Positions 7,348 to 19,771 of a stretch of 20,828 bases of DNA are shown piece after piece. The notes beneath the pieces are model-generated. The model saw only the letters and a list, made by a program, of their open reading frames with translations. It did not search any database and was not told the DNA's origin. The stretch is from assembly GCA_020849725.1 (NCBI GenBank), contig JADLAZ010000235.1:1-20828 (forward strand), written 5' to 3'. The stretch's first letter is position 1. Each line of letters starts with the position of its first letter. The position numbers and the translations under genes are program-made. The DNA comes from Chloroflexota bacterium. Lineage in GTDB: Bacteria > Chloroflexota > Chloroflexia > Thermomicrobiales > JADLAZ01.

Positions 7348-7462
7348 CCAGAATCATGGCTTCCCGACGGCGAATCTTTGGCCTCGACCTCCGCGATGGG
7401 GTCTGAATTGTCCTGCTGATGCACCTGTGCGGCGCGACACCCTGTCTCCAAACTCCGCCGAA

Positions 7463-7490
7463 AGTATAGCAAAACCCCTCGGGAAGTCCA
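7463..7490 (-). promoter_or_regulatory. Extended -10 promoter of tRNA-Thr
   Basis: On the minus strand TGCTATACT is a perfect extended -10 (TATACT at 7463-7468), with TGGACT (7485-7490) 16 nt upstream as a fair -35. The predicted start near 7456 leaves a leader of about 110 nt before tRNA-Thr. One copy of the AAACCCCTCGG repeat fills the spacer. Confidence 0.6.
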
Positions 7491-7544
7491 GACGCCGCCC
7501 CGCGGACGCGCCGAAACCCCTCGGAAACCCCCGGAAAACTCCCC
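7472..7544. repeat. AAACCCCTCGG repeats at the tRNA/accessory boundary
   Basis: AAACCCCTCGG occurs exactly at 7472-7482 and 7514-7524; a variant AAACCCCCGG follows directly at 7525-7534, and AAAACTCCCC ends the run. The first copy lies in the spacer of the tRNA-Thr promoter. The rest of 7348-7648 shows no gene; composition here is less coding-like than in flanking genes. Confidence 0.6.
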
Positions 7545-7648
7545 AGTACCGCTGCGGCGCCGCTCGCATGACATCATCGACCGCCGATCGAACGTCTATC
7601 AGGCAGGGGGCCGGCGGCGGCCCGATGGGGGAGCGGGAAGGTAAGGCA

Positions 7649-8086
7649 GTGCGTGATCCAGCAGTGACGACCGCTGTCGGTGCGTGGGGGCCGCTGATCG
7701 ACTGGGGCGGCGCGCTGATCGCGCGCGGGGCGCGGCTGGCCGTCGCCGACGGCCGGCTGGTCGTCACCGGCCCGGCCTGGCTGCTGACGCCGCCGATCCG
7801 GGACGCCCTCGACCGCCACGAGCGCGACCTCGCCGGTCTGCTCCTGCGCGCCGACGACCCGGCCGTCGCCTGGCGGTTGGCGGGGATGCTGGCCGATCTC
7901 GCCCGCCGGCCGGGGACGTGGAGCCCGACGGCGTGCCCGGCGACGCCGGTGGGGTCAGGCCGCTGCCGCTCCTGCGGCGACGCGTTGCCCGCGCCGCGCG
8001 GCCCGTCGGGCCGCATCCGCTGCCCCGCCTGCGCCGCCGCGCTCCGGCTCGCGCTCCGCCGGACCCGCGAGGGCGACCTCGGCTGA
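7649..8086 (+). CDS. TubC_N-like plus zinc-ribbon protein
   Basis: A 145-residue product in two parts. Residues about 21-67 (ALIARGARLAVADGRL..TPPIRDALDRHERDLAGLL) follow the pattern of TubC N-terminal docking-like domains, which in bacterial accessory elements often occur in small proteins of unknown role. The C-terminus has a zinc ribbon with C106, C109, C125 and C128 (CRSC..CPAC). The protein may bind nucleic acid or a partner protein. I chose GTG 7649, preceded by GGGAAGG at 7 nt; ATG 7625 is the alternative and adds eight residues but lacks a Shine-Dalgarno. It is the only plus-strand gene of the accessory block and converges on the sliding-clamp gene with a 19-nt gap. Confidence 0.7.
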   Translation: MRDPAVTTAVGAWGPLIDWGGALIARGARLAVADGRLVVTGPAWLLTPPIRDALDRHERDLAGLLLRADDPAVAWRLAGMLADLARRPGTWSPTACPATPVGSGRCRSCGDALPAPRGPSGRIRCPACAAALRLALRRTREGDLG

Positions 8087-8105: not shown

Positions 8106-9431
8106 CTACTCGACGCGCGTGAGGTGGACGCCCCGCCGGCCAGCCGTGCTCGCCCGGCGGGGCGGGGCGTCGCCAGGGGCATCGCGCGCCGACGCCTCGG
8201 GCTGCGCGGCGACCACCGGTTCGGGGGCGTCCCGCGCTTCCTTGTCCGCAAGCAGTTCCCGGTCACCCGCCTCGTCCGGTGCCGCGGGTGGCGCCGGGGC
8301 GCCAGCGGGCGCCGTCGGCAGGCACGGCATAAGCAGATAGCGCAGGTCGGCGCCCGTCACCGGCCGGATCAGGCACGGCAGCGCCGGCGATTGGAACCCC
8401 AGCTCGACCTCCAGCCCGCCGGCCGCCGCCAGCAGCTCGTCCAGCAGCACGGCGTCCAGCGCCAGCGTCATCGGCCCGCCGGCGATCGCCGCCTCGAGCT
8501 CGCTGACGCTCTCGCCCGTCTCCCGGCCACGCGCCGCGATCGTGATCAGCCCCGGCCCCCCCTCGCCCGGCGCGACGGCGAGGGTGATGACGTGGCCGTC
8601 CGGGTCGAAGCGCGCGGAGCGGCGCAGCGCCGAGCGGAGCGCGACCCGTTCGACCACGGCCCGGCAGGGCGTCGCGTCGGGCAGCAGTCCCCGATAGTCC
8701 GGGAAGCCGCCCTCGACCAGGCGGGCCGCCCACCGCAGGCCGTCGGGCGTCTCGGCCGTCAGCGCGCCGCGCTCGGCGTCGACGGTCAGCGTCACCCGGC
8801 CGAGGACGCTCCGCAGCAGCCGGGCCAGCTCGGCCAGCGCCCGCCGTGGCACCAGCACGCCCGGCAGGCCGGGCGCCGCCGGCCCGGCCCCGCGCCGCAC
8901 CGCCAGCCGCACGCCATCGGTGGCGGCCAGCGCCGGTGGGTCGAACTCCCAGCGCACGGCGGCCAGGGCGGGCCGGACGTCGTCGCGGTCGCGCGCGGCG
9001 ACGAGCACCTGGCCGAGCATCGGCCGCAGCTCGGCACCGAGCCAGGCGAGGGTCGGGCTACCTGGGCCGGGCGTCGGCGGCAGCGGGAAGTCGTCGGCCG
9101 GCCCGGCGGCGAGCGTGGCGCGCGTGCGGCCGGCGCGGACCGCGAGGGCGCCCCCGGCGTCCACCGCCAGCTCGACGGGGACGCCGGGCAGGCTGGCGGC
9201 CAGCTTCGCCAGCAGTTGGGCCGGGACGGTCAGCGCGCCGGGTGCCCAGATGGTCGCGGCCGCTGGGGCGCTGACGGCGACGGTCAGGTCGGTGGTGGTC
9301 AGCGTCAGCGTCCCGTCGCCGGCGCGCAGGTGAACGTGGTCCAGGTTCGGGACCGGGCTGACGCCGCCGGCGGCCGGGGCGACCAGCGCCAGCGCGTGGG
9401 TCAGGGCGGGTTGCAGGATGGTGACGTGCAT
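8106..9431 (-). CDS. DnaN-like DNA sliding clamp with C-terminal tail
   Basis: Homologue of the DNA polymerase III beta subunit, the ring that holds polymerases and repair enzymes on DNA. Residues 1-372 show the clamp pattern: N-terminal MHVTILQPALTHAL, domain-2 ATDGVRLAVR (170-179), the FPDYRGLLP linker motif (243-251) and the terminal strand ADLRYLLMPC (361-370), where ordinary clamps end in a few residues (MPMRL type). Here 69 residues more follow, rich in A, P, E and R and probably disordered. The sequence is divergent and the gene lies in an accessory operon, so I read it as a second clamp, not the housekeeping dnaN; the rest of the genome is unseen. ATG 9431 has GGAGG at 6 nt. Last gene of the minus-strand block; the preceding gap is 127 nt. 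Confidence 0.9.
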   Translation of the reverse strand: MHVTILQPALTHALALVAPAAGGVSPVPNLDHVHLRAGDGTLTLTTTDLTVAVSAPAAATIWAPGALTVPAQLLAKLAASLPGVPVELAVDAGGALAVRAGRTRATLAAGPADDFPLPPTPGPGSPTLAWLGAELRPMLGQVLVAARDRDDVRPALAAVRWEFDPPALAATDGVRLAVRRGAGPAAPGLPGVLVPRRALAELARLLRSVLGRVTLTVDAERGALTAETPDGLRWAARLVEGGFPDYRGLLPDATPCRAVVERVALRSALRRSARFDPDGHVITLAVAPGEGGPGLITIAARGRETGESVSELEAAIAGGPMTLALDAVLLDELLAAAGGLEVELGFQSPALPCLIRPVTGADLRYLLMPCLPTAPAGAPAPPAAPDEAGDRELLADKEARDAPEPVVAAQPEASARDAPGDAPPRRASTAGRRGVHLTRVE

Positions 9432-9488
9432 GGTGATCCTCCTTCACAGATGCGGAGCGAACGGTGAGGCGCCTTCACGACACCGGCG

Positions 9489-9512
9489 CCCTGGCGACGA
9501 TCGTCGCCGGGG
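9489..9512. promoter_or_regulatory. Palindrome upstream of the clamp gene
   Basis: GGCGACGATCGTCGCC (9493-9508) is a perfect 16-bp palindrome, extended by CCCT/GGGG flanks with one G-T pair. It stands in the 127-nt gap between the 120-aa gene and the clamp gene, about 60 nt before the clamp ATG. It could be an operator or an RNA hairpin; no U-run follows, so a terminator is less likely. Confidence 0.4.
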
Positions 9513-9558
9513 TCTCGACCACTGACCGGATGCGCGGCGGCTGGCGGTTGGGGCGTCG

Positions 9559-9921
9559 TCAGGGTCGGTCGTCATCCGCCTCGATTCGGCCGCCGGCCAC
9601 CGCCAGGTCGAGTTCGGCGGCCGCCGCGCGCACCCGAGCGAGGATGGCGTCGGCCCGGTCGCGCACGGCTCGGTTCTGGCGCTGCTCGAACTCCTCCGGC
9701 CAGAGCTCACCGCACGGGGCACGCAGGACGATGGGGACGACCACCGGCCCGTGCTCCGTCTGATCGACCCGGCGATAGCTCGCCTCGGCGATCAGCAGCG
9801 CGATGGGCGCCAGCTCGGTCGGCCGGACGACCTGGGTGCAGCGGACCAGGCCGTCGACGTTCGGCGGTCGCCGCCGTAGCTCCGCCACGAACTCGTCAAC
9901 GCGCGTGTAGAGAACGATCAT
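9559..9921 (-). CDS. Conserved-looking protein of unknown function, 120 aa
   Basis: I do not recognise this protein. It has a strand-rich N-terminal half (MIVLYTRVDEF; PVVVPIVLRAP) and a helical, charged C-terminal half (EEFEQRQNRAVRDRADAILARVRAAAAEL, about 76-105). No transmembrane segment, signal peptide or metal motif is visible; two cysteines (C28, C70) are not paired in a CxxC. ATG 9921 has a very strong Shine-Dalgarno (AAGGAGG, 7 nt) that overlaps the stop of the gene upstream, so the two are probably translated together. Third-position GC and amino-acid composition are those of a real gene. Its place between two sigma genes and the clamp suggests a role specific to this block. Confidence 0.7.
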   Translation of the reverse strand: MIVLYTRVDEFVAELRRRPPNVDGLVRCTQVVRPTELAPIALLIAEASYRRVDQTEHGPVVVPIVLRAPCGELWPEEFEQRQNRAVRDRADAILARVRAAAAELDLAVAGGRIEADDDRP

Positions 9922-9934
9922 GGCAGGTCCTCCT

Positions 9935-10285
9935 TCATGGTGCGGCTCGATCGGGTCGCGCGTTGCCCCGCTCTGGACACCAGCCAGCCACGGGGTCGAC
10001 GGCGCCGACCGCTGGCCGCGTCACCTGGCAGATCGGGCAGAGCGCTGGGCCCTGCTGCTCGCGCTTCACGCGCGACTCGAGTCCGTCGCCGCCGGGCCAG
10101 CGCCGGGCGACGCGGCTGGGGATGCCGGCAGCGACGGCGGCGGCGACCAGCGTCGAGCCGTTCGCGTGGCCGCCGATGCGCGCGACGAGGCGCACGCTCA
10201 GCCGGCGCGTGGTCGTGCTGAGGTCATGCTGGGTGTGCACAGCCTCGACTGAGCGGGCCCGGATGATCGGCGGTCCCGGCGTCAG
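9935..10285 (-). CDS. Small cysteine-containing protein, possible CTG start
   Basis: An unrecognised protein of 116 residues (from CTG 10285) or 101 residues (from GTG 10240). The frame has coding-like third positions from 10285 to its TGA at 9935. The C-terminal half contains ALCPICQVTRP, a further cysteine in GWCPERG, and many basic residues, so a small metal- or nucleic-acid-binding protein is possible, though a full four-ligand zinc site is not evident. AGGAGG (10291-10296) stands exactly 5 nt before CTG 10285, whereas GTG 10240 has no good Shine-Dalgarno; no ATG, GTG or TTG is placed to use AGGAGG. The gene begins 21 nt after the first sigma gene's stop and ends 13 nt before the next ATG. 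Confidence 0.6.
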   Translation of the reverse strand: MTPGPPIIRARSVEAVHTQHDLSTTTRRLSVRLVARIGGHANGSTLVAAAVAAGIPSRVARRWPGGDGLESRVKREQQGPALCPICQVTRPAVGAVDPVAGWCPERGNARPDRAAP

Positions 10286-10290
10286 CGGCG

Positions 10291-10296
10291 CCTCCT
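10291..10296 (-). promoter_or_regulatory. Shine-Dalgarno AGGAGG ahead of a CTG codon
   Basis: A full AGGAGG on the minus strand, 5 nt before CTG 10285 and 10 nt after the stop of the sigma gene. It is the main evidence for CTG initiation of the small Cys protein. Confidence 0.5.
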
Positions 10297-10305
10297 CCCT
10301 GGCGG

Positions 10306-10896
10306 CTAGGCAGCCGGCTGGGCGCACGACTGCCGCTCGAGTGCCGCCCAGCGGTGCCTGAACTCCAGCCGGGCACGGTAGAGCGTGCTCTTGACGGCCG
10401 CCGGGCTCATGCCCATCACCGCGCCGATCTCCTGGCAGGAGAGCCCGTCGACCTCGCGCAGGATGAGCGCCAGTCGGTGACGCGGCTTCAGTTGGTCGAG
10501 CACGTGCTGAACGCTGACGCGTGCCTCCTGGCTGAGCGCCCGGTGTTCGGGGTCGTCGGCCGGGCCGCTCAGCACCAGGGGGTCGTGTGTCGGCCCGTGC
10601 CAGGGCAGCCACCGCAGCCGCTGGCGGCGGCGCAGCACGTCGAGGCAGGCGTTGGCGGCGATGCGGTGCAGCCAGGCCGAGACGTTGAGTTCGCGGCGGA
10701 TGCGCGGCAACGCCTGGTAGGCCTTGACGAAGCAGTCTTGCGTGAGGTCGCAGGCGTCATCGGCGTCGCCCAGCATGCGATAGACGAAGGCGTAGATCTG
10801 GCGCTCATAGCGCGCCACGATGGCCTCGAAGGCGGCCCGGTCGCCCGCCCTGGCCCGCTCAACCCAGCGCCGTTCGTCGATGGACATCGGACTCAT
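10306..10896 (-). CDS. ECF-type RNA polymerase sigma factor (RpoE/SigW-like)
   Basis: A 196-residue sigma-70-family factor of the extracytoplasmic-function group, which directs RNA polymerase to a small set of promoters. Region 2 (about 20-92) has AFEAIVARYERQIYAFVYRMLGDADDACDLTQDCFVKAYQAL and the SAWLHRIAANACLDVLRRR segment; region 4 (about 128-182) has the helix-turn-helix VDGLSCQEIGAVMGMSPAAVKSTLYRARLEFR. The linker is long and carries two tryptophans (RLRWLPWHG). ATG 10896 is preceded by AAGGA at 9 nt. No anti-sigma gene is adjacent. It follows the other ECF gene by 129 nt, a gap containing a CCCGGC/GCCGGG hairpin (10949-10963). Likely targets include this gene block. Confidence 0.93.
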   Translation of the reverse strand: MSPMSIDERRWVERARAGDRAAFEAIVARYERQIYAFVYRMLGDADDACDLTQDCFVKAYQALPRIRRELNVSAWLHRIAANACLDVLRRRQRLRWLPWHGPTHDPLVLSGPADDPEHRALSQEARVSVQHVLDQLKPRHRLALILREVDGLSCQEIGAVMGMSPAAVKSTLYRARLEFRHRWAALERQSCAQPAA

Positions 10897-11025
10897 CGTG
10901 GTTTCCTTTTCTGTGACGCGCCCGCCGCCGTGCCGACCGGACGCGGCACCCGGCGGAGCCGGGCGCCCTGACTCCGCCGCGGCCGGCAGCAGGCGCGATA
11001 CGAACCCGGTGGCGCGGCGGCCGAC

Positions 11026-11616
11026 CTATCGGCCCGCGCCAGTGAGGCGGGCGTGGCCGAGGTCAGGCGACGGCGCGCGGACCGCCGCGCGCGCCCGCGC
11101 CAGGCGGGTGCGGACGGCCCCCGGCGAGCAGCCGAGCGCGGCGGCGACCTCGGCGACGGTCAGGTCGACGCGGAGCAGGAGCGCCCGGCGCTGCCCGGCC
11201 GGCAGCCGGGCCAGCACCGGCGCGGTGGCGGCGAGCGCCTCGCGGGCGGCGGTGGCAGCCGCCGCTCGTTCGGCCGGGTCGACCGCCACGGGCGGCGACG
11301 CCAGCGCGAGCCGCTCGACGAGCCGGCGCTGGCGGAACCGCCGCCGCCGGGCGTCGAGCGCCAGCCGCATCACCAGCCGCGTCAGCCAGGCGACGACGCC
11401 GGCCTCGTCGGCCCGCCGCAGATGGTGCAGGCGCGACCGGGCGCGCAGGTACGCCTCCTGGAGCACATCGTCGACGGTCTCGGCGCCGTCGTCGCCGGCC
11501 AGCAGGCGGCCGGCGGCGCGGCGCAGCGCCGGGTCGCGCCGCGTCATGAGCTCGGCCAACCGGCCGTCGTCCCAGGCCCCGACCGCCGGCGCCTCGTGCC
11601 GATCATCGGTCCTCAT
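11026..11616 (-). CDS. Divergent ECF-type sigma factor
   Basis: Also 196 residues but of different sequence from its neighbour, so not a recent duplicate. A shortened region 2 (about 25-95) reads ETVDDVLQEAYLRARSRLHHLR..VVAWLTRLVMRLALDARRRR; region 4 (about 130-180) reads LARLPAGQRRALLLRVDLTVAEVAAALGCSPGAVRTRLARARAAVR, a clear sigma-4 helix-turn-helix. Region 2 begins later than usual and lacks the typical aromatic core, so promoter melting may differ. ATG 11616 has GGGAGG at 5 nt and lies inside the end of the radical-SAM gene (14-nt overlap), which points to coupled translation. Two sigma genes in one operon with no visible anti-sigma gene is uncommon. Confidence 0.88.
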   Translation of the reverse strand: MRTDDRHEAPAVGAWDDGRLAELMTRRDPALRRAAGRLLAGDDGAETVDDVLQEAYLRARSRLHHLRRADEAGVVAWLTRLVMRLALDARRRRFRQRRLVERLALASPPVAVDPAERAAAATAAREALAATAPVLARLPAGQRRALLLRVDLTVAEVAAALGCSPGAVRTRLARARAAVRAPSPDLGHARLTGAGR

Positions 11617-12292
11617 GGCCGCCTCCCGCGTTCAGGTCCGACCGGAGGAACCGGCCGGGCCGGCGGATGAAGCGCTGGTTGCGCGAGCCGCGCCAGGCCG
11701 GCGCGCCGGCGGCCAGCGTGACGCGGTACGGCCCATCGATCAGCCAATCGACGGCGGCGAGCAGGTCCCGCAGCGCCGGGCGAGTCGCCGCCCGCCGCGC
11801 CAGCACTGCCAGCGGGTAGCCGGAGTAGAGGCCGATGTCGGCGCAGCCGCGCCGGCGCAGCGCCCGGACGAGCGCCAGCACGCCCTCGGCCTGGAGCGTG
11901 GGCTCGCCACCGAGGAGGGTGACGCCGTCGCGCGGGTGGGCCGGGTCGAGCAGCGCCGCCGCCAGCGCCGCGACGGCGACGCGCCGGCCGCCGCCGGTCG
12001 GGTGGGTCTCGGGGACGTGGCAGCCGGGGCAGCCGATCGGGCAGCCCTGGCAGCGCACGACGCTGCGCCGGCCCGGCCCGTCGACCAGGCTGCCGTGGTA
12101 GTAATCGGTGATGCGCAGGCGCGGCCCGCCCGTGCGGGCGACGGGCGGCGCGAGCGGGGCGAGCGGCCGGGCGCAGCCGAGCGCGCTCCCCGGACCGAGG
12201 CCGGCCGACGCGATGGCAGTCGCGCCGCCGTCGCTGGCGATCAGGAGGTCGCCCGTCACGGTGTCGATGGTCAGCTCGATGTGGTCGGACAT
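11603..12292 (-). CDS. NrdG-like radical-SAM activase
   Basis: Member of the 4Fe-4S single-cluster radical-SAM group related to NrdG, the activator of anaerobic ribonucleotide reductase. In 229 residues: the cluster motif CPIGCPGC (C84, C88, C91; CX3CX2C) in RCQGCPIGCPGCHVPETH, the SAM-binding GGEP (128-131), GLYSGYPLAVL (154-164), LIDGPY (184-189) and the NrdG signature RGSRNQRFI (201-209). It presumably binds a [4Fe-4S] cluster and SAM and makes a glycyl or other radical. No NrdD partner is present here, so its substrate is probably another protein of the block. The first 25 residues resemble the DUF2997 protein encoded just upstream. ATG 12292 follows the DUF2997 stop by 2 nt, with AGGGGG as Shine-Dalgarno. 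Confidence 0.88.
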   Translation of the reverse strand: MSDHIELTIDTVTGDLLIASDGGATAIASAGLGPGSALGCARPLAPLAPPVARTGGPRLRITDYYHGSLVDGPGRRSVVRCQGCPIGCPGCHVPETHPTGGGRRVAVAALAAALLDPAHPRDGVTLLGGEPTLQAEGVLALVRALRRRGCADIGLYSGYPLAVLARRAATRPALRDLLAAVDWLIDGPYRVTLAAGAPAWRGSRNQRFIRRPGRFLRSDLNAGGGHEDR

Positions 12293-12294
12293 GG

Positions 12295-12498
12295 CTAGCC
12301 CCCTTTCCTTCCCCCGGCCCGCGCCGTGGGGACGGGCCGGACCGCATGCTCCGGCTTGCGCTGCGCGATCTCGGGCGGGCGGCCCATGACCGCCGCGATC
12401 AGGCGGGCGGCCTCCTCGCAGGCGGGGCCGCGATAGCCGACGATGTCGACATGCAGCTCGCCGGTCGTCCGATCGATGGTGATGATCAGCTCGGGCAT
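12295..12498 (-). CDS. DUF2997 protein
   Basis: A 67-residue protein of the DUF2997 type. It shows the family pattern: a strand pair IITIDRTTGELHVDIVGYRGPAC (4-26), then a helix CEEAARLIAAVMG (26-38). The C-terminal 25 residues are basic and probably flexible. DUF2997 proteins are commonly found beside DUF1257 and AAA proteins, as here; the biochemical role is unknown. ATG 12498 has AAGGAGGG at 5 nt. It lies 49 nt after the DUF1257 gene and 2 nt before the radical-SAM gene, so cotranslation with the latter is likely. Confidence 0.82.
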   Translation of the reverse strand: MPELIITIDRTTGELHVDIVGYRGPACEEAARLIAAVMGRPPEIAQRKPEHAVRPVPTARAGGRKGG

Positions 12499-12523
12499 GG
12501 ATACCCTCCTTGCGAACGGCGCT

Positions 12524-12560
12524 CGGATCGACGCCGGGCGATTCGGATCAGCGCCGGGCG
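12524..12560. repeat. Imperfect 20-bp-period tandem repeat
   Basis: CGGATCGACGCCGGGCG (12524-12540) and CGGATCAGCGCCGGGCG (12544-12560) differ at two bases. The second copy contains the stop of the DUF1257 gene; the first lies in the gap before DUF2997. Probably a small slippage duplication. Confidence 0.5.
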
Positions 12561-12952
12561 CGGATGACCAGTCGGTCGCCCTCGCGTTGTTGGGTCACCT
12601 GGCCGCCGAAGCGCCGGGCGATCTCCATCGCCTTGCGCGTGTGGACGGCCGTCTTGAGCGCCACCAGGAACGAGGCGTCGCCGACGCGCAGGCGGCGCCG
12701 GTCGTACTCGCTGATGACCGGGACCAACCCGGCCGGCGTGCGGGCGAAGCCGAGGTCGTTGCTGGCCGGCAGCAGGTGGCGGCGGCGGATGACCAGGTCG
12801 GCCGTCTCCGGCCGCCGGTCGCCCTGGTAGCCGAAGAGCGGCAGGTCGCGGCCGCGGTCTAGCGCGTCGGCGCCGAAGCCGATCTCGGCCAGCGCTGCCA
12901 GCAGCGTCGGCTCATCGACGCACAGGTCGGTGTAGAGCGTGTACTTGGACAT
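12548..12952 (-). CDS. DUF1257 (Ycf35-like) protein
   Basis: A 134-residue protein matching the DUF1257/Ycf35 family known from cyanobacteria, plastids and diverse bacteria. The family core is visible as TADLVIRRRHLLPASNDLGFARTPAGLVPVISEYD (about 50-84), preceded by a short ferredoxin-like beta-alpha start (SKYTLYTDLCVDEPTLLAALAEIGF) and followed by a helix (LVALKTAVHTRKAMEIARRFG) and a final strand (RLVIRARR). Its function is not established; it is often linked to a Ycf46-type AAA gene, as here. I chose ATG 12952 because GGAGG lies 5 nt upstream and MSKYTLYT aligns with the usual N-terminus; ATG 12964 would add four residues. The AAA gene stops 75 nt upstream. Confidence 0.85.
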   Translation of the reverse strand: MSKYTLYTDLCVDEPTLLAALAEIGFGADALDRGRDLPLFGYQGDRRPETADLVIRRRHLLPASNDLGFARTPAGLVPVISEYDRRRLRVGDASFLVALKTAVHTRKAMEIARRFGGQVTQQREGDRLVIRARR

Positions 12953-13027
12953 GTCATCCTCCATTCGCGGTGGGTTGGTTGGCCAGTTGGTTCGGTCGGG
13001 TGGGTCACCGGGCGTGGCGGCGGTTGG

Positions 13028-14644
13028 CTAGAGCTCGACCGTGCGCGCGGCCGGGGCCGGCCGGGCCTCGTCCTCCTCGCCGTCGGCGCTGGCGATGCCG
13101 TGGCCGCGCGCCCAGGCCCGCAGCGCCTCGATCTCCTCGGCCCGCACCGCCGACAGCGGCCGGATGCCGCGCGCCGCCCGCACCAGATCGACGGTGTCGA
13201 CCTCGCGCCCGGCGGCGAAGGCCTGTGCCAGCCCCTCCTTGATCGCCGCCGCCAGCTCGGCGCCGCTGAAGCCCGCGGTCAGTTCGGCCAGCGCCGCCAG
13301 GTCGAAGGTTTCCGGCGTGCGGCCCACCCGGCGCAGGTGGACGGCCAGGATCGCCTGCCGCGCCGCCGGGCGCGGCAGGTCGACGAACAGGACGTGGTCG
13401 AAGCGCCCGTGGCGGATCTGCTCCGGGGCCAGCGCGCGCACGTCGTTGGCGGTGGCGAAGACGAGCACCTCCTCCTGGTCGGCCATCCAGGCCAGGAAGC
13501 TGCCGATGGTGCGCGCCGTCTCGCCGCCGTCGCTGGCGTTCGAGGAGGCCAGCCCGCCCAGCGCCTTCTCGAACTCGCTGACGCCGAGGATGCAGCGGAC
13601 GGTGGTGGCGATCTGGAGCGCCTGCTTGACCTCCTGATGGGCTTGGCCGACGACGCCGCCGCGCGCGCCCATGACGGCGGCGAAGTCGAGGTCGAGGAGG
13701 GGGAGCCCCAGCACCGCCGCGGCGACGCGCTTGCACAGGTCCTTGCCGCACCCCGGCAGCCCGACCAGCAGGATGCCCTTCTCACGTGGCAGGCCATAGG
13801 CGCGCGCTTCGGGCGTGAAGCTAGCCGCGACGCGCTCCAGCAACCGGGTGAGCGCCGGGTAGCCGGCGAACCGGTCGGGCGGCTCGGGCTCGACGTAGGT
13901 GAGCGAGCCAGAGCGACGGATGGCATCGCGCTTCTCGCGCAGGAAGAGCGGCACGGCCGCAGCGTCGAGCCGGCGCTGGGCCACCACCGACCGCGCGATC
14001 AGGTTGTCGATCTCGCCCAGCGTCAGGCCGAGCAGCGCCCGGACGATTGGCGCGCGCTCGGCCGGCGACAGTGTCGACTGAGCGATGTCGGGGACGGCGG
14101 CGTAGCGCTCGACCTCGCCGGCCAGGAAGGCGTCGACCTCGGCCCGGTCGGGCAGCGGCAGCGGCAGCACCTTGACCTCGCGCGCCAGCGTCGGCAGGTG
14201 CGGCCAGGCGACGCCGACGAGCACCACCGTCGGGCCGCCCTTGCGCCCCTTAAGCGCGAAGGCCAGCTCGCGCAGCTGGCGGGCGAGCAACGGCTCCTCC
14301 TGGCCGTAGGGGGTCAGGTGAGGCGCGAAGTCGGCCAGGACGAACAGGCCGGCTGACGCGCCGTCGATGTGGGTCAGGATCTCGACCGGGGCGTCGGCGC
14401 CGGCAACGGGCTGCTCGTCGCCGCCGAGTGCCAGGCGGCGCAGGCCGCGCGCGATGCTCCACAGGAAGATCGGCTTGTCGCGCTGGCGCGGCAGGGCGGC
14501 GACGGCCTGGACGAGCGCCAGGGCGCGCTCTTCTTCCGGCGTCTCCAGCGCGATGAGCGGGTAGCGGGCGCGGATGAGCTGGTCGAGCTCGGTCACGAGC
14601 GACGCGAGCTGCGGCAGGTCGTGGGTGACAGTCCCGTCCGTCAT
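13028..14644 (-). CDS. Ycf46-like AAA protein with altered Walker A and B
   Basis: A 538-residue protein with the Ycf46/SpoVK-like AAA layout. The N-terminal half (1-250) is the family's partner domain (RYPLIALETPEEERALALV; a degenerate P-loop-like fold), the AAA core is about 255-440, and the lid is about 440-510. Key positions: the Walker A region reads GLPGCGKD (295-302), with D302 in place of Ser/Thr; Walker B reads CILGVSEFEKAL (351-362), with S356 in place of the Mg-binding Asp and E357 kept. Sensor 1 ATAND (N400) and the arginine-finger motif RHGRFD (411-416) are intact. ATP may be bound but hydrolysed poorly. ATG 14644 has GAGGAG at 9 nt. It sits between the coiled-coil gene and DUF1257. 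Confidence 0.92.
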   Translation of the reverse strand: MTDGTVTHDLPQLASLVTELDQLIRARYPLIALETPEEERALALVQAVAALPRQRDKPIFLWSIARGLRRLALGGDEQPVAGADAPVEILTHIDGASAGLFVLADFAPHLTPYGQEEPLLARQLRELAFALKGRKGGPTVVLVGVAWPHLPTLAREVKVLPLPLPDRAEVDAFLAGEVERYAAVPDIAQSTLSPAERAPIVRALLGLTLGEIDNLIARSVVAQRRLDAAAVPLFLREKRDAIRRSGSLTYVEPEPPDRFAGYPALTRLLERVAASFTPEARAYGLPREKGILLVGLPGCGKDLCKRVAAAVLGLPLLDLDFAAVMGARGGVVGQAHQEVKQALQIATTVRCILGVSEFEKALGGLASSNASDGGETARTIGSFLAWMADQEEVLVFATANDVRALAPEQIRHGRFDHVLFVDLPRPAARQAILAVHLRRVGRTPETFDLAALAELTAGFSGAELAAAIKEGLAQAFAAGREVDTVDLVRAARGIRPLSAVRAEEIEALRAWARGHGIASADGEEDEARPAPAARTVEL

Positions 14645-14718
14645 GCGTGTCTACTCCTCTCGATGTAGCTGTAGCCTCGCCGCCCGACGGCCGGGCGACG
14701 GGCGCGATTGGCTCATCT

Positions 14719-14755
14719 ATGAAATGACCGGACACATCATCCGGACAGCCGGTGG
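14719..14755. promoter_or_regulatory. Possible operator or promoter region before the AAA gene
   Basis: The 116-nt gap between the coiled-coil gene and the AAA gene has a locally AT-rich patch (14719-14740) and two CCGGACA direct repeats (14728-14734, 14741-14747; 13-bp period) flanked by an inverted ACCGG/CCGGT. No convincing -35/-10 pair was found, so the regulatory role is a guess. Confidence 0.3.
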
Positions 14756-14760
14756 CCGCA

Positions 14761-16056
14761 TCACAGCTCGACGGCGCCGGCGCGGCCGCCGTGGAGATCG
14801 GCCAGGCCGCGCGTGTAGGCGACGAGGTCGCTGACGCACCGCTCGATCGCCTCGCCGGCGGCCGCGGTGGCTGTCCTGGGCCGCCGGCGCCGCCCCGTGG
14901 TCGTCGCGGCCCGCTCCTCCAGCGCGGCGATCAGGCGGGCCAGGCCGTCGTCGCCCTCGAAGTTCATTAGTCTCAGGTAGTCAGCCAGCCGGCGCAGCTG
15001 GCGATACGAGGAGGCGGGCAGGCGGCCATGCTTCCGCAGCGCCGCCCCGACCGCCTCGGCGACCGCCGCCGTCTCGCGGTGGAGCTGCTCGGCCGCCTCG
15101 GCCAGCGGCGACAGGCGCTGCTCGACCATCCGCTCGACCAGCCGCCGCTCGGCCTCGACCCGAAGGTGATGCATCAGTCTGGCCGCCTCAGCGTCGCGGG
15201 TCTGCGCCTCCTGCTCGGCGAAGAGCCGCGCCTGGGCGGCCTGGGCCGCGCCGTCGGCCTCGATGCGGGCGATCTCGACCTGCCGGCGGGTCGTGATGGC
15301 CCGCCGCTGCTCCGCCGCCAGCTCACTCCCGAGTTGGAAGACGCCGACCTCCAGCCGCAGGGCGATGCGCTCGCGGATGGCCGCGCGCGTGGGGAGGGCG
15401 GCGTGGAAGGCGGCCGGCAGGCGGCGGTCGAAGTCGGGTGGGACGGCGTGGCCGGTGGCTGCCAGCCGGCGGGCCGAGTCGGCGGCCAGGCGGCCGAGCG
15501 CCAGGCCGGCCTCGCCGACAATCCGGTCGTAGTCGGCGACGACGGCCGCCTTGGCCGCCTCCAGCTCGGCCTGGAGCGCCAGGAACTGCCGGTGGAAGCG
15601 GACGACTGCCGTCGCCGGCACCCAGCGGTAGGCGGCCGTGCCGAGGATGGCCTCGACAAGGGCGAAGCGGAAGCTGTGGCGGCGCAGCAGGTCGTGGCCG
15701 GCGCCGAGCAGGCGGGCGAGCGGGCGGGCGTGGCGCTCCGGCAGCAGCCGGCAGGTCGGCGGGGCGAAGCCGACAGCGGCGTCGGGCGGCAGGACGACGC
15801 CGAGCAGATCCCAGCCGAGTTGGACGGTCAACAGGCCGGCGCCGTGGGCGGTGACGTCGAGGAAGATCCCCTCCTCGGCCAGGATCGACAGGTCGAAGGG
15901 CAGCCGCCGGACGGCAGGCGGCGCCAGCCCGAGCGCGGCGGCGGCCCGCCCGGCGCGCTCGGCGTAGGTGTCCGGGCCGTCGCCGGTGTCCGGCAGCAGC
16001 GTGATCTCGCTGGCCGGCGCGGGCGCCGGCTCGACGATGGGCGAGATGAGCGTCAT
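14761..16056 (-). CDS. Coiled-coil protein, possibly DUF3150-like
   Basis: A 431-residue protein without a sure family. Its middle (about 55-180) has strands and helices followed by GHDLLRRHSFRFALVEAILGTAAYRWVPATAVVRFHRQFLALQAELEAAKAAVVADYDRIV; this order recalls DUF3150 proteins of phages and accessory elements, which are often encoded beside AAA ATPases, but the match is by eye only. Residues about 235-330 are a long charged coiled coil (EIARIEADGAAQAAQARLF..), and the C-terminus is helical. ATG 16056 overlaps the primase stop as ATGA and has AGGAGG at 7 nt. It may be a scaffold or AAA partner. Position directly between primase and AAA genes makes a link to DNA processing plausible. Confidence 0.8.
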   Translation of the reverse strand: MTLISPIVEPAPAPASEITLLPDTGDGPDTYAERAGRAAAALGLAPPAVRRLPFDLSILAEEGIFLDVTAHGAGLLTVQLGWDLLGVVLPPDAAVGFAPPTCRLLPERHARPLARLLGAGHDLLRRHSFRFALVEAILGTAAYRWVPATAVVRFHRQFLALQAELEAAKAAVVADYDRIVGEAGLALGRLAADSARRLAATGHAVPPDFDRRLPAAFHAALPTRAAIRERIALRLEVGVFQLGSELAAEQRRAITTRRQVEIARIEADGAAQAAQARLFAEQEAQTRDAEAARLMHHLRVEAERRLVERMVEQRLSPLAEAAEQLHRETAAVAEAVGAALRKHGRLPASSYRQLRRLADYLRLMNFEGDDGLARLIAALEERAATTTGRRRRPRTATAAAGEAIERCVSDLVAYTRGLADLHGGRAGAVEL

Positions 16057-17207
16057 CGTGATACCTCCTGCAAGGGCGCACGTCCGATGGGCGTGCGCCC
16101 CGCGACGCGGTGGCTGGCCGTGGCGACGGCCAGATCGGGCGGGAGCAGCGCGGCGAGGTGGGCGCGTCCGTCGGGGAGGGTAGCGAGGTCGCCGACGTCC
16201 TTGGCCCCGGCCGGCACGGCGACCGGCGTCGCGCGTTGGCCGAGCGCCGCCGCCAATGCCGCGGTGGCGCGCTGGCCGGCCTCGTCGGCGTCGAAGAGCA
16301 ACCAGACTTGCTGGAAGCGCGCGAGCGCCGCCGCCTGCGCCCGCGTCCAGCCGGCGCCGCCGAGCGCGACGGCCGGCCAGCCCCAGGCGTCGAGCAGCAG
16401 CAGGTCGAAGATGCCTTCGACGACGACCACCCGGTCGCGCTGCGGCGGCAGGCGGCCGAGGCCGAGCAGCGGGCGCGGGCCGGGCAGCGAGTCGAAGCGG
16501 CGGGCGGCGGGATCGGCGGCGCCGGGCAGCAGCCGGCCGGTGAGCCAGGTCGGACGGCCGGCGACGAGGTCCGGGATGACGACGCGACCGGCGAACCGCT
16601 CGCGACCGTCCCGGCCGAGCAGGCCGAGCCGGCGGAAGGGGAGCGACGAGGTGCGTCGCCGGCGCAGCTCGGCGGCCAGCCCGCCGCCCAGGCCGAGCCG
16701 CCAGCGGTCAACGGTCGCCCGGTCGAGGCCGCGGCCGGCCAGGTAGGCGCGGGCGGCCGGGTCGCGCGCCAGCCGGCCGGCGTAGTGGTCGACCGCCAGC
16801 GCCAGCGCCGCGCCGAGCACCGGGTCGGACGCGGCCAGCGGCGTCGCCGGCGACGCCAGCGGCGGCGCGCGCGGGGCAGGGCGGGCCGGTCGCCGGGCCG
16901 CGAGCGGCGGCGGGCCGCCGGTCAGCGCCGCGACCGCCGCCACGAAGGGCAGCCCCTCGATCGCCGCCACCAGGTCGATCACGTCGCCGCCGCTCCGGCA
17001 GCCGAAGCAGTGGTAGCGACCCTGGTCGGCGTAGACGACGAAGGAGGGGTCACGGTCGCGCGCGTGGCCGGGCAGCGGGCAGCGGGCCAGCAGCCGGCCC
17101 CGACCGGCTGGGCGCAGGGCGACGCCGTAGCGCCGGGCGGCGGTCGCCGCCAGCGGGTGGGCGCGCTTGACGGCATCGACGTCGATGCGGGGCAGAGCTC
17201 GGATCAT
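16053..17207 (-). CDS. Short DnaG-like primase (CHC2 zinc finger plus Toprim)
   Basis: Synthesises RNA primers for DNA replication if active. The 384-residue product has a CHC2 zinc-binding domain (C43, H48, C67, C70 in RCPLPGH..YHCFGCRSGGDVIDLV) and a Toprim core: VVVVEGIFDLLLL (E264, D268), then VWLLFDADEAGQRA (D306, D308). It lacks the C-terminal helicase-binding domain of the ~600-residue housekeeping DnaG, so it resembles primases of plasmids and phages. ATG 17207 is chosen for AGGAG at 9 nt and because the next 35 residues are the usual helix before the zinc finger; the frame upstream is rich in R and P. It begins 14 nt after the helicase stop and ends in an ATGA overlap with the next gene. 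Confidence 0.92.
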   Translation of the reverse strand: MIRALPRIDVDAVKRAHPLAATAARRYGVALRPAGRGRLLARCPLPGHARDRDPSFVVYADQGRYHCFGCRSGGDVIDLVAAIEGLPFVAAVAALTGGPPPLAARRPARPAPRAPPLASPATPLAASDPVLGAALALAVDHYAGRLARDPAARAYLAGRGLDRATVDRWRLGLGGGLAAELRRRRTSSLPFRRLGLLGRDGRERFAGRVVIPDLVAGRPTWLTGRLLPGAADPAARRFDSLPGPRPLLGLGRLPPQRDRVVVVEGIFDLLLLDAWGWPAVALGGAGWTRAQAAALARFQQVWLLFDADEAGQRATAALAAALGQRATPVAVPAGAKDVGDLATLPDGRAHLAALLPPDLAVATASHRVAGRTPIGRAPLQEVSR

Positions 17208-17221
17208 GGCACTCGCTCCTT

Positions 17222-19117
17222 TCAGTCGGCATCGATGACGGCGACGGACGCGGGCGGCAGCTGCGCCAGGAAGCGCGACGGGCGCATCGCCGTCGGGCCG
17301 TGCGGGCCGCGCCGGCGCCGGCAGTGGCGGAGGTAGAGGTGGCGGCGGGCGCGGGTGAGGGCGACGTAGGCGATGTGCCGCTCGGCGCGCAGCGCCGCCG
17401 GGTCGGCCAGGGCGCGGGCGTCGGGCAGGACGCCGTCGTCGAGCCCGATCGCGAAGACGACCGCCCACTCCAACCCCTTCGCGGCGTGCACCGTCGACAG
17501 CGTGACCGCATCGGCGCCCCCGTCGGCGGGGAGATCGTCGGCGAGCAGGTCGGCCAGCCAGGCGTCGAGCGGTCCGCCGGCATCGGCCAGCGCCCGCAGG
17601 TCGTCGATCGCCGCCAGTGGCTCGGCCGCCTGGCGGTCGCGGCGCAGCCGGTCGAGGAGGCCCGCGGCGTCCAGCACCGCATCGACCAGTGCCGGCGAAA
17701 CGCGGCCGGCCGCCGTCCGGCAGGGCGCCAGCGCGTCCAGCAGCCGCCGCAAGCCGGCCGCTTGCCCGGTCCCGGCGGCGCCGAGCGCGCGGTCGAGGCG
17801 GTCGGCCAGCGCCGTGATGGCCGCCAGGTCGACCGGCGCGGCGGCGTCGATCGCCTCGGCCAGCAGCCGCAGCCCGTGGTCGGGCTCGGCCAGGACGCGG
17901 CGCCAGGCGGCGACGTCGTCCGGGTCGGCCACCAGCCGCAGGTAGGCCAGCGCCTCAGCCGCCGCGCCAGCGGCGAGCAGGTCGCCGGCCGGCCGGCGCG
18001 CCCGGTGGGGGATGCCCGCCGCGCGCAGGGCGGCGGCGATGGGCTGGCGCTGGGCATGCGCGCGGTAGAGCACGGCCGCCTCGGCCCAAGCGGCTAGCTC
18101 GCCCGCGGCGCGCAGCCGGCCCAACTCGCCGGCGATCCAGGCCGCCTCGTCCGCCTCGTCGCGGCTGCGACGCAGGACCACGGGCGGCCCGGCGCCGCCG
18201 GCCGCCACCTGGGGGTGGGCATAGGGCAGATCGGCCACCAGCGCGTTGGTCGCGGCGACGAGCGGCGCGGTCGCCCGGTAGTTGGCGTCGAGCGCGACGT
18301 GGCATGCACCGGGGAAGGCGGCGGCGAACTCGTCGAGCCGGCGTGGATCGGCGCCGCGGAAGCCGTAGATGCACTGGCAGGCGTCACCGACGACGGTGAG
18401 GTTGCCGTGCGCGCCCGTCAAGAGCCGCGCCAGGCGGAACTGGTCGCGGCAACTGTCCTGGAACTCGTCGACGAGGATGTGGCGGTAGGCGGCCTGCAGC
18501 AGCGCCAGGCCCGCGGGATGCGCCTCGAGGATGCGCGGCGGCAGGGTGACCATGGCCGCGAAGTCGATGGCGTTGCGCCGCCGGAGCAGCTCCTCATAGG
18601 CGCCGGCGAGCGCGGGCAGGTCGAGCGGCAGGCCGTCGGCAGCGTCGGTCACGCCGAGTCGCCAGCGGGCCAGCCGGTCGGCGAGCGCCGCCGGCGGCAG
18701 CGGCGGCGCGGCGATGCCCAGCCGCCGCAGCGCCTCGCCGGCGACGAGCGCGGCGTCGGGGCCGGCGTAGACGGCCAGCCGGCCGGGGCGGTAGCCAGCC
18801 GCCGCCGGCCACTGGAGGATGATGCGGCGGCCGAGGGCGTGGTAGGTGGTGGCGAGGACGCGGCGGCCGTGCTCGGGCAGGCGCGCCGCCAACCGGGCCT
18901 GGAGCTCGGCCCGCGACCGGCGGCTGAAGGCGACCGCCAGGATGGCGTCCGGCGGGACGCCCCGCGCCGTGATCAGGTGGGCGATGCGCTCGACGATGAC
19001 GGTCGTCTTCCCCGCCCCCGGCCCGGCGGCGACGAGCAGCGGCCCGTCGGGGGCCTCGACCGCCGCCCGCTGCCGCTCGTCCAGCGCGAACGGCGGCCGG
19101 TCGTCGCGGGCGGCCAC
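17222..19117 (-). CDS. UvrD/PcrA/Rep-like superfamily 1 DNA helicase
   Basis: An ATP-driven 3'-5' DNA helicase by family. In 631 residues: Q-motif LDERQRAAV (12-20), Walker A GPGAGKTT (32-39), motif Ia AVAFSRRSRAEL (61-72, where FTNKAA is usual), Walker B VDEFQDS (216-222), motif III GDACQCIYGFRGAD (244-257), motif IV NYRAT, motif V TVHAAKGLEW (542-551) and motif VI YVALTRARR (584-592). Motif III has C where Ser is common (QSIYGFRGA). It is about 100 residues shorter than UvrD and lacks the UvrD C-terminal tail. Start is GTG 19117, three bases after the stop of the upstream gene, without a strong Shine-Dalgarno, so translation is probably coupled. Acts with the primase encoded next, by context. 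Confidence 0.94.
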   Translation of the reverse strand: MAARDDRPPFALDERQRAAVEAPDGPLLVAAGPGAGKTTVIVERIAHLITARGVPPDAILAVAFSRRSRAELQARLAARLPEHGRRVLATTYHALGRRIILQWPAAAGYRPGRLAVYAGPDAALVAGEALRRLGIAAPPLPPAALADRLARWRLGVTDAADGLPLDLPALAGAYEELLRRRNAIDFAAMVTLPPRILEAHPAGLALLQAAYRHILVDEFQDSCRDQFRLARLLTGAHGNLTVVGDACQCIYGFRGADPRRLDEFAAAFPGACHVALDANYRATAPLVAATNALVADLPYAHPQVAAGGAGPPVVLRRSRDEADEAAWIAGELGRLRAAGELAAWAEAAVLYRAHAQRQPIAAALRAAGIPHRARRPAGDLLAAGAAAEALAYLRLVADPDDVAAWRRVLAEPDHGLRLLAEAIDAAAPVDLAAITALADRLDRALGAAGTGQAAGLRRLLDALAPCRTAAGRVSPALVDAVLDAAGLLDRLRRDRQAAEPLAAIDDLRALADAGGPLDAWLADLLADDLPADGGADAVTLSTVHAAKGLEWAVVFAIGLDDGVLPDARALADPAALRAERHIAYVALTRARRHLYLRHCRRRRGPHGPTAMRPSRFLAQLPPASVAVIDAD

Positions 19118-19120
19118 CGC

Positions 19121-19771
19121 TCACTGCCCGCCGAGGCCGAGGGGGTCGGCCGGCGACGGGGGCGACGGCACGGGCGGCAGCCCGTTGACGAGGGCGGCGC
19201 CGGCCGGGGACCGCGCCGCCAGGTCTGACCACGATGGGGAGCCGACGGCCGTCCGACGCCCGGCCGCGTCGATCGGCGGCGCGGGGGGCGCGGCGGGCGC
19301 CGGCAGCGTCCAGAGATTGGCGTCGCCCGGCTCCCACCAGGCCAGGTGGTCGAGGGCGGCGGTGAGCGTGGCGATGAGCTCGGCGTCGGCGACCGGCCGG
19401 CCGCGCCAGGTCGCTGCCAGCGTGATCACCGCCCGCGGCCGGCCGGCGATCGGGCGGACGGCGACGGTGGCGAGCAGGTGGCCGAGGTCGGCGAAGGCCG
19501 GCGGCGCGCCGACGAGCGGCAGGACGCGCACGCGGCAGGGGACGGCCGGCAAGCCGTCGTGAACGCGCTCGCTGGCGCGGAGGCCGCGCCGCACGACCCC
19601 GACCAGGCGACGCCGCTGACGGCGGTCGACGCCGGGGACGACGACGAGGACGCGGGCGGCGGCGGGGAAGCACCACTGCGCGAGGGCGCGGACACGCCCG
19701 GCCAGCCAGCGGCCAGCCCGGCAGCAGCCGCGGATCAGGTGGGAGACGTGCGAGCGACAGGTCGGCGTCAT
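19121..19771 (-). CDS. Protein of unknown function, first gene of the accessory operon
   Basis: A 216-residue product that I do not recognise. The N-terminus is basic and cysteine-containing (CRSHVSHLIRGCCRAGRWLAGRVRALAQW), residues 39-125 form alternating strands and helices (AARVLVVVPGVDRRQRRRLVGVVRRGLRASERV; LLATVAVRPIAGRPRAVITLAATWRGRPV), and the last 70 residues are proline-rich and low in complexity. ATG 19771 has AAGGAG at 7 nt. GTG 19912 is an in-frame alternative adding 47 residues, with GAGGAGG 12 nt upstream; third-position GC stays high across that stretch, so the longer form is possible. It ends 3 nt before the helicase GTG, which argues for coupled expression. Confidence 0.7.
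   Translation of the reverse strand: MTPTCRSHVSHLIRGCCRAGRWLAGRVRALAQWCFPAAARVLVVVPGVDRRQRRRLVGVVRRGLRASERVHDGLPAVPCRVRVLPLVGAPPAFADLGHLLATVAVRPIAGRPRAVITLAATWRGRPVADAELIATLTAALDHLAWWEPGDANLWTLPAPAAPPAPPIDAAGRRTAVGSPSWSDLAARSPAGAALVNGLPPVPSPPSPADPLGLGGQ

Follow-up and report, generated by a model that had tools for sequence, protein, structure and literature searches.

DUF1257 and DUF2997 are families to which, to our knowledge, no function has been assigned in cyanobacteria and plastids. A cyanobacterial cluster DUF2997 - ycf35 (DUF1257) - fed7 is mentioned in PMC4284462, and the FtsH ternary conflict systems outlined by Kaur et al. 2020 (PMC7159879) combine an AAA ATPase with a radical SAM enzyme that likely acts on a small partner, one variant including ubiquitin-like conjugation. 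Here we analyse a stretch of 20,828 nt, hereafter the window, from a Chloroflexota bacterium (assembly GCA_020849725.1, contig JADLAZ010000235.1), in which a block at 8106..19771 joins DUF1257 and DUF2997 genes to those of an AAA ATPase, a radical SAM enzyme (rSAM), a protein of 431 residues (u431), a sliding clamp, a primase, a helicase, two sigma factors (sigA and sigB) and two further proteins (u216 and u120). A literature search by title and abstract, with most subscription journals outside it, returned no paper on this gene combination. We somewhat favour the view that the block serves replication and maintenance as the core of a horizontally moving family of elements, the mobility being read from the relatives and not from the copy in the window. 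This element family is best seen in Chloroflexota and has a reduced form in Acidobacteriota; its gene order is conserved, its clamp and primase are additional in most of the relatives tested, its distribution is patchy and some genomes hold several copies.

The block is a real, conserved and patchily distributed gene set. Profiles built from relatives alone, with the window sequences left out, recovered 8 of the 12 block proteins, each at E 1e-15 or better (AAA 5e-194, helicase 1.5e-168, primase 1.7e-95, u431 3.7e-95, rSAM 3e-62, clamp 3e-59, DUF1257 5e-36 and DUF2997 9.7e-16), so that the block is not a chance grouping. Searching genome contigs with an alignment of 26 AAA sequences yielded 296 relatives; the top 80 were kept and represent 79 loci (numbered L; their genomes are numbered G); 61 of the 79 belong to the AAA clade of the window, 51 by their motifs and 10, being fragments or broken frames, by identity. 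When only loci with enough flank are counted and gene order is scored with slack for open reading frame (ORF) starts, the order u431-AAA-DUF1257-DUF2997-rSAM stands in 35 of 38 loci, which bears out the expectation of the original prediction, an earlier reading of the window, that the gene set travels as a unit. Gene by gene, u431 is present in 48/49 loci, DUF1257 in 48/50, DUF2997 in 46/47 and rSAM in 46/47; the exceptions to the order are L066, which is without u431, L047, which is without three genes, and L006, a nested-ORF artefact where DUF2997 lies in order by tblastn. In the Chloroflexota relatives helicase and primase lie upstream of this five-gene core and the clamp downstream. If shorter flanks are included, the helicase occurs in L001, L003, L004, L005, L007, L009, L041 and L053, and the primase also in L047, where its end adjoins the start of u431 as in the window; these loci are Chloroflexota, L001 being labelled Proteobacteria but its genome belonging to the set drawn from the phylum of L053. 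The clamp was seen in three Acidobacteriota loci (L013, L014 and L060), and the gene set as a whole is scattered across mostly uncultured bacteria. On the Arthrobacter conjugative plasmid pZXY22 (L093), an AAA gene followed by small ORFs and a gene annotated nrdG forms a distant relative of the module.

Most of the relatives' genomes tested have a canonical dnaN and dnaG in addition to the element's clamp and primase. A canonical-looking dnaN (241-311 bits) was found in 17 of 18 such genomes and a second dnaN match of 170-224 bits in eight of the 18 (G002, G003, G004, G005, G006, G009, G014 and G015), while dnaG passed its cut-off in 6/8 genomes (not in G003 and G011), accompanied by lower-scoring primases. 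In a FastTree tree the eight full-length Chloroflexota element clamps form one clade (support 0.998), and L179, the second dnaN match of G006, groups with the clamp of its own host. The window clamp scores 132.6 bits against TIGR00663 (cut-off 137.65), has the three DnaN domains that mark a replicative DnaN and, with 441 residues, is longer than the element clamps of relatives (368-405 residues). The window primase is under the cut-off for full-length DnaG (TIGR01391, 100.6 vs 283.6 bits) and the window helicase under that of the pcrA model (323.7 vs 911.2 bits).

The AAA core is nearest to p97/Cdc48 among solved structures (3.4e-40), the best proteasome-activating nucleotidase scoring 6e-25. 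Pfam recognizes the AAA fold itself, but the window protein departs from the classical GxxxxGK[ST] and hhhhDE motifs, with GKD in Walker A and SE at Walker B. These two features recur in 55/55 rows of the clade (one from the window, 51 from the loci and three from repeat retrievals; in L002 the K is replaced by Q). In the 120 AAA homologues listed of 450 found, which were chosen by similarity to the window so that the motif counts describe this AAA clade only, Walker A has Asp instead of Ser/Thr in all 120, and the Walker B Asp position is occupied by Ser (113), Thr (3), Ala (2) or Gly (2), never by Asp. A strict exchange of residues between Walker A and Walker B was considered and softened, since the Walker B position varies; the constant fact is that the Walker B Asp is lost and an Asp stands in Walker A. 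Rows of the clade do retain the glutamate of Walker B, the sensor Asn and the arginines. The outgroup comprises 35 rows, drawn from plasmids, phages and other bacteria; the Walker A Asp occurs in none of them and the Walker B Asp in 34, L067 having neither. Since outgroup AAAs beside DUF1257, DUF2997 or rSAM keep ordinary motifs, the alteration tracks the element clade rather than these partners. That a whole AAA clade has lost the Walker B Asp and carries an Asp in Walker A makes a clean enzymology question.

The AlphaFold2 model of u431 (mean pLDDT 74.8) gave seven matches at E<=0.001 in a viral library, one of them named DUF3150, and Pfam DUF3150 was matched weakly by 3 of 45 u431 homologues (best E 0.0036) and not by the window copy. 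This likeness to phage DUF3150 proteins would also suit a prophage or phage-plasmid that has decayed and lost its virion genes, as would the PHROGs matches of the AAA (phrog_8638, nearly full length), the clamp (phrog_947) and the helicase (phrog_1967), and the viral contigs L084 and L085, in which an AAA occurs with rSAM, DUF1257 or a u431-like protein. Yet identity is no more than 29-36% for the AAA relatives in 13 viral contigs, whose readable Walker motifs are ordinary, the window ORFs are intact, and inspection by eye of the window and of the translated flanks of five Chloroflexota relatives disclosed no virion gene. When u431, AAA and clamp were each scanned singly against viral contigs, no relatives were found. 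We regard a phage origin of this kind as highly improbable.

The window copies of DUF1257 and DUF2997 have no Pfam match at E<0.1. In a mixed set of 25 homologue rows (14 DUF1257-type and 11 DUF2997-type, the window's two included) searched at E<=1, 12 rows matched DUF1257 (best 1.4e-8) and 11 matched DUF2997 (best 1.1e-10), and the two names originally proposed are thereby upheld at the level of the family. The AlphaFold2 model of DUF1257 has a mean pLDDT of 91.3. The GxxGxxC motif is kept in 54/54 DUF2997 rows and the Cys of the rSAM N-terminal domain in 53/53 rows; hhalign aligned this domain with DUF2997 at 96% probability over 38 columns in a comparison of just two profiles. The DUF2997 protein, whose domain rSAM shares, is its most likely partner and a candidate substrate. 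The enzyme has a CxxxCxxC core and scores 92 bits against the NrdG model TIGR02491 (cut-off 126.1). NrdD was not found at E<=1e-3 in 16 of 18 draft genomes of relatives, the control being an NRDD match in 6 of 14 genomes; since these 16 genomes carry the gene set, rSAM most likely acts on a partner within it, and a role in serving NrdD appears unlikely. Two loci, L001:12198-18206 and L049:12218-16493, have an rSAM gene interrupted within CxxxCxxC; behind it stand two recombinase-like genes and a divergent, intact rSAM copy, the intact copies of the two loci being 57% identical. The rest of the cut gene was found past the insert in L001, where a group II intron reverse transcriptase lies farther along, and was not found in L049. 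Such a replacement suggests that the function of rSAM is under selection.

Beyond what had been predicted for the window (u431's DUF3150 likeness and the altered AAA motifs are likewise additions), the relatives bring PRTRC genes, SSB, RadC, a methyltransferase and a second helicase around the core. Downstream of the clamp, PrC, PrB?, PrA and ThiF follow in this order at eight loci (L002, L003+L099, L004+L101, L005+L103, L006/L106, L105, L112 and L115), with several kilobases of other ORFs between clamp and PrC in L005, and PrC and PrB? in one ORF in L115. PrC matches Prok_Ub over the cut-off (47.9 bits) and PRTRC_C just under it; the downstream ThiF passes Pfam ThiF (63.3 bits) and stays under the cut-off of PRTRC_ThiF; PrA is just under the cut-off of Prok-JAB (22.8 bits) and under that of PRTRC_A. 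For PrB? there was no family match, and an E2-like protein was not identified either. The genes past the ThiF set include a DUF6094 methyltransferase (93.2 bits) and a helicase of ~760 residues; in the fuller Chloroflexota loci RadC and SSB separate primase from u431. The Acidobacteriota loci instead have ThiF on the upstream side of u431, in 23 of the 27 loci with 6 kb upstream, a count from which the eight Chloroflexota loci of the 35 scored were set aside. For the window, the PRTRC part is either missing or outside the window; clamp and PRTRC can be missing together, because L012 is without both.

The interval from rSAM to the clamp is a variable slot that holds different genes from locus to locus, and neither sigA nor sigB has a match in any ORF of the relatives' loci compared. 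The sigma factors are not core, and we see them best as cargo or as local regulators that stand outside the system. The original prediction of a self-contained system with its own transcription finds no support on that last count, the sigma factors being found in no relative's locus; it is supported in the co-travel of the genes and in the canonical copies that exist besides. Past the helicase of ~760 residues, stretch L099, downstream of L003, has ORFs that look restriction- or defence-like by eye, and the element may carry defence cargo there. Tad/Flp-pilus-like genes were noticed by eye upstream of the core in L003, L004 and L005 (stretches L100, L102 and L104).

It is tempting to propose how such a core could work. 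With its clamp, primase and helicase, and in the fuller relatives also SSB and RadC, the element would copy or repair its own DNA by means of the host polymerase; the AAA ring and its DUF3150-like adaptor, u431, would unfold or remodel protein complexes on the element DNA; rSAM would modify a partner, most likely the DUF2997 protein, and so arm the machine; and in many relatives the ubiquitin-like (PRTRC) set would tag the substrates. Taken as a whole, this could be a bacterial counterpart of the eukaryotic ubiquitin-Cdc48 pathway that clears proteins off replicating DNA: a mobile element would supply clamp, primase and helicases of its own, many relatives would add a set for ubiquitin-like tagging, and a Cdc48-like ring whose metal site is rewired would be armed by rSAM through modification of DUF2997. 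We hold this idea to be quite improbable. A functional link between ubiquitin-like tagging, Cdc48-like ring and clamp, if there is one, would give bacteria a parallel to a pathway regarded as characteristic of eukaryotes.

The same proteins could be placed in a defence or conflict island. In that case AAA, adaptor and rSAM, joined in relatives by ubiquitin-like conjugation, would make up an immune machine, with the replication genes serving it as effectors that sense or attack DNA. PMC7159879 sets out FtsH ternary conflict systems that include radical SAM or ubiquitin-like conjugation, and PADLOC matched the helicase to GajB and the DRT helicase, the primase to the DRT primase and the AAA core to IetA. 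Any UvrD helicase, DnaG-like primase or AAA core would, however, be expected to give matches of this sort. Neither a vWA nor a MoxR domain turned up in the window proteins that were scanned, and a clamp-primase-helicase set is not known to us as an effector; an immune island seems to us unlikely.

As for the genomic setting, one could argue for a resident chromosomal repair operon, vertically inherited in the host lineage. No mobility gene was found in the window, the GC content of the block (0.73-0.81) has no sharp break from that of the genes to its left (0.64-0.78), and tRNA and core-metabolism genes adjoin the block. A resident operon hardly fits with an AAA that reaches E<=1e-60 in only 2 of the 158 genomes of the window host's class, to which the genome of L053 (G011) also belongs, nor with other lineages, where copies lie at different contig positions and the AAA reaches E<=1e-100 in 29 of the 147 genomes of G017's class, with one to three copies each. 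We therefore judge vertical inheritance of this sort very unlikely. The MglA-like gene of the window is 81-82% identical to those of G031 and G034, which belong to the same order as the genome of L053, so that the window's host is probably a member of that order too. In L053, itself of the window host's order, a tyrosine recombinase gene adjoins a tRNA-Val gene; this integrase has no match among window ORFs of at least 40 residues, and in the nearest relatives, found by their S66 peptidase and MglA-like genes, no synteny was found at the tRNA site. At L053:9900-14016 the AAA frame is split in two, and the clamp has a partial ORF with an additional match to PrB?; this element copy or its assembly may be damaged.

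Several observations weigh against a replication core of moving elements. The scheme of action given above is conjectural at every step, and the u431 and DUF1257 models found no convincing match among solved structures (PDB), which does not make their folds new. Helicase and primase are present in only 7/33 and 8/35 loci with enough flank, and neither was found in the Acidobacteriota loci. The expected second dnaN, supported by the genomes counted above, fails in the draft genome G007, whose sole dnaN found is the element's own (208 bits); only one dnaN was found in 7 of the 18 genomes, and in G010 and G011 the second match is only a fragment of ~50 bits. The window clamp neighbours the Chloroflexota element clade with a weak support of 0.771, and the Acidobacteriota element clamps L013, L060 and L178 fall with Acidobacteriota host clamps (supports 0.69-0.88). 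As regards PRTRC, the PRTRC_ThiF model scores at least 95 bits in 13/18 genomes and at most 33 bits in those of L001, L012, L013, L047 and L066, passes its curated cut-off in 0/18 and has some hit in 8 of 14 control genomes, as a generic ThiF would; the PrC, PrA and ThiF profiles have no match at E<=1e-3 in window ORFs of at least 40 residues. The search of the 158 genomes scored at most 9 candidates per genome. No recombinase was found in the window by the Pfam scan of its ORFs or by comparison with the L053 integrase, searches for att repeats in the window and in L053 gave only short, chance-like matches, and a tryptophan-synthase-like ORF and the Tad-pilus-like genes near L003, seen by eye, fit a chromosomal setting.

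The layout of the block agrees with what was first described, namely twelve genes on one strand with short gaps or overlaps: twelve intact ORFs run from 19771 down to 8106 (Table 1), and from u216 downstream the junctions measure 3 bp, 14 bp, a 4-bp overlap, 116, 75, 49 and 2 bp, a 14-bp overlap, and 129, 384 and 127 bp, tight ones being among them. The primase start was moved to the ATG at 17207, and that of DUF1257 is most likely 12952, in view of the conserved MSKY start. Integrase, polymerase, initiator and virion genes were again missing, as first noted, from the 19 window ORFs scanned with Pfam (130 ORFs listed). No family in Pfam, NCBIfam, PHROGs or PADLOC was found for u431, u120 or u216. 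Homology of u216 to the ~190-residue protein of relatives was considered and dropped: the first profile had included the window, and the profile made without it finds no match at E<=10. One relative, L006, has a match to u120 (4e-7). Two promoter-like sites were found, both left of the block, and the terminator scan found none. Between tRNA-Thr and the clamp, a plus-strand ORF (7427-8086) has a zinc-ribbon-like C-terminus under cut-offs and belongs to no family found.

Table 1. Genes of the block in the window, listed from upstream to downstream
Feature	Coordinates	Strand	Basis or remark
u216, basic, unknown family	19121..19771	-	position matches ~190-residue protein of Chloroflexota relatives
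UvrD/PcrA-like SF1 helicase	17222..19117	-	UvrD-helicase Pfam 171.2 bits
Short DnaG-like primase, CHC2 zinc finger and Toprim	16053..17207	-	Pfam; TIGR01391 100.6 bits
u431 (431 residues), DUF3150-like, long helix	14761..16056	-	predicted fold, viral-library matches
AAA ATPase, Cdc48/Ycf46-like core	13028..14644	-	Pfam AAA and lid; Walker A GLPGCGKD, ILGVSEFEK at Walker B position
DUF1257 (Ycf35-like)	12548..12952, alternative start 12964	-	homologue Pfam matches
DUF2997 small protein with GxxGxxC	12295..12498	-	homologue Pfam matches, motif
NrdG-like radical SAM (rSAM) with DUF2997-like N-terminal domain	11603..12292	-	Fer4_12 and Radical_SAM over cut-off
ECF sigma factor B (sigB)	11026..11616	-	Pfam; variable slot, outside conserved core
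ECF sigma factor A (sigA)	10306..10896	-	Pfam; variable slot, outside conserved core
u120, unknown family	9559..9921	-	match in same slot of L006
Second DnaN-type sliding clamp, 441 residues	8106..9431	-	three DnaN Pfam domains over cut-off

How, then, does this gene set stand beside described systems? Phage DUF3150 proteins have MoxR/vWA partners; u431 resembles these proteins in its predicted fold and in the weak Pfam match of 3/45 homologues, but the block shows no such partners. With NrdG, the anaerobic ribonucleotide reductase activase, rSAM shares CxxxCxxC and the 92-bit TIGR02491 match; it differs in scoring under 126.1, in its extra DUF2997-like domain and in the failure to find NrdD in 16/18 genomes. 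Operon type 6d of Iyer et al. 2006 and PRTRC are, we presume, the same thing. The relatives resemble it in having ubiquitin-like, JAB-like and E1-like ThiF proteins in one cluster with the core, whereas the window has none of the ubiquitin-like, JAB and ThiF genes, and the account of type 6d in PMC1779556 mentions no clamp, primase, helicase, AAA, DUF1257, DUF2997 or radical SAM. The FtsH ternary systems, as characterized in PMC7159879, are alike in AAA and radical SAM, a small partner, a ubiquitin-like variant and helical accessory proteins; they differ from our block, where replication genes are present and no MoxR, vWA or double FtsH module was found in the scanned proteins. Plasmids of Pseudanabaena and Geminocystis have the DUF1257/DUF2997 pair together with an AAA, but this AAA has ordinary Walker motifs and no radical SAM was found in these regions. 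The cyanobacterial cluster presented in PMC4284462 has the same DUF1257/DUF2997 pair in other company, its neighbour being fed7; in Pseudanabaena the neighbours are Hsp70 and GrpE genes. Compared with these, the conserved order with an AAA, a DUF3150-like adaptor, a DUF2997-bearing rSAM and replication proteins gives DUF1257 and DUF2997 a concrete biochemical setting.

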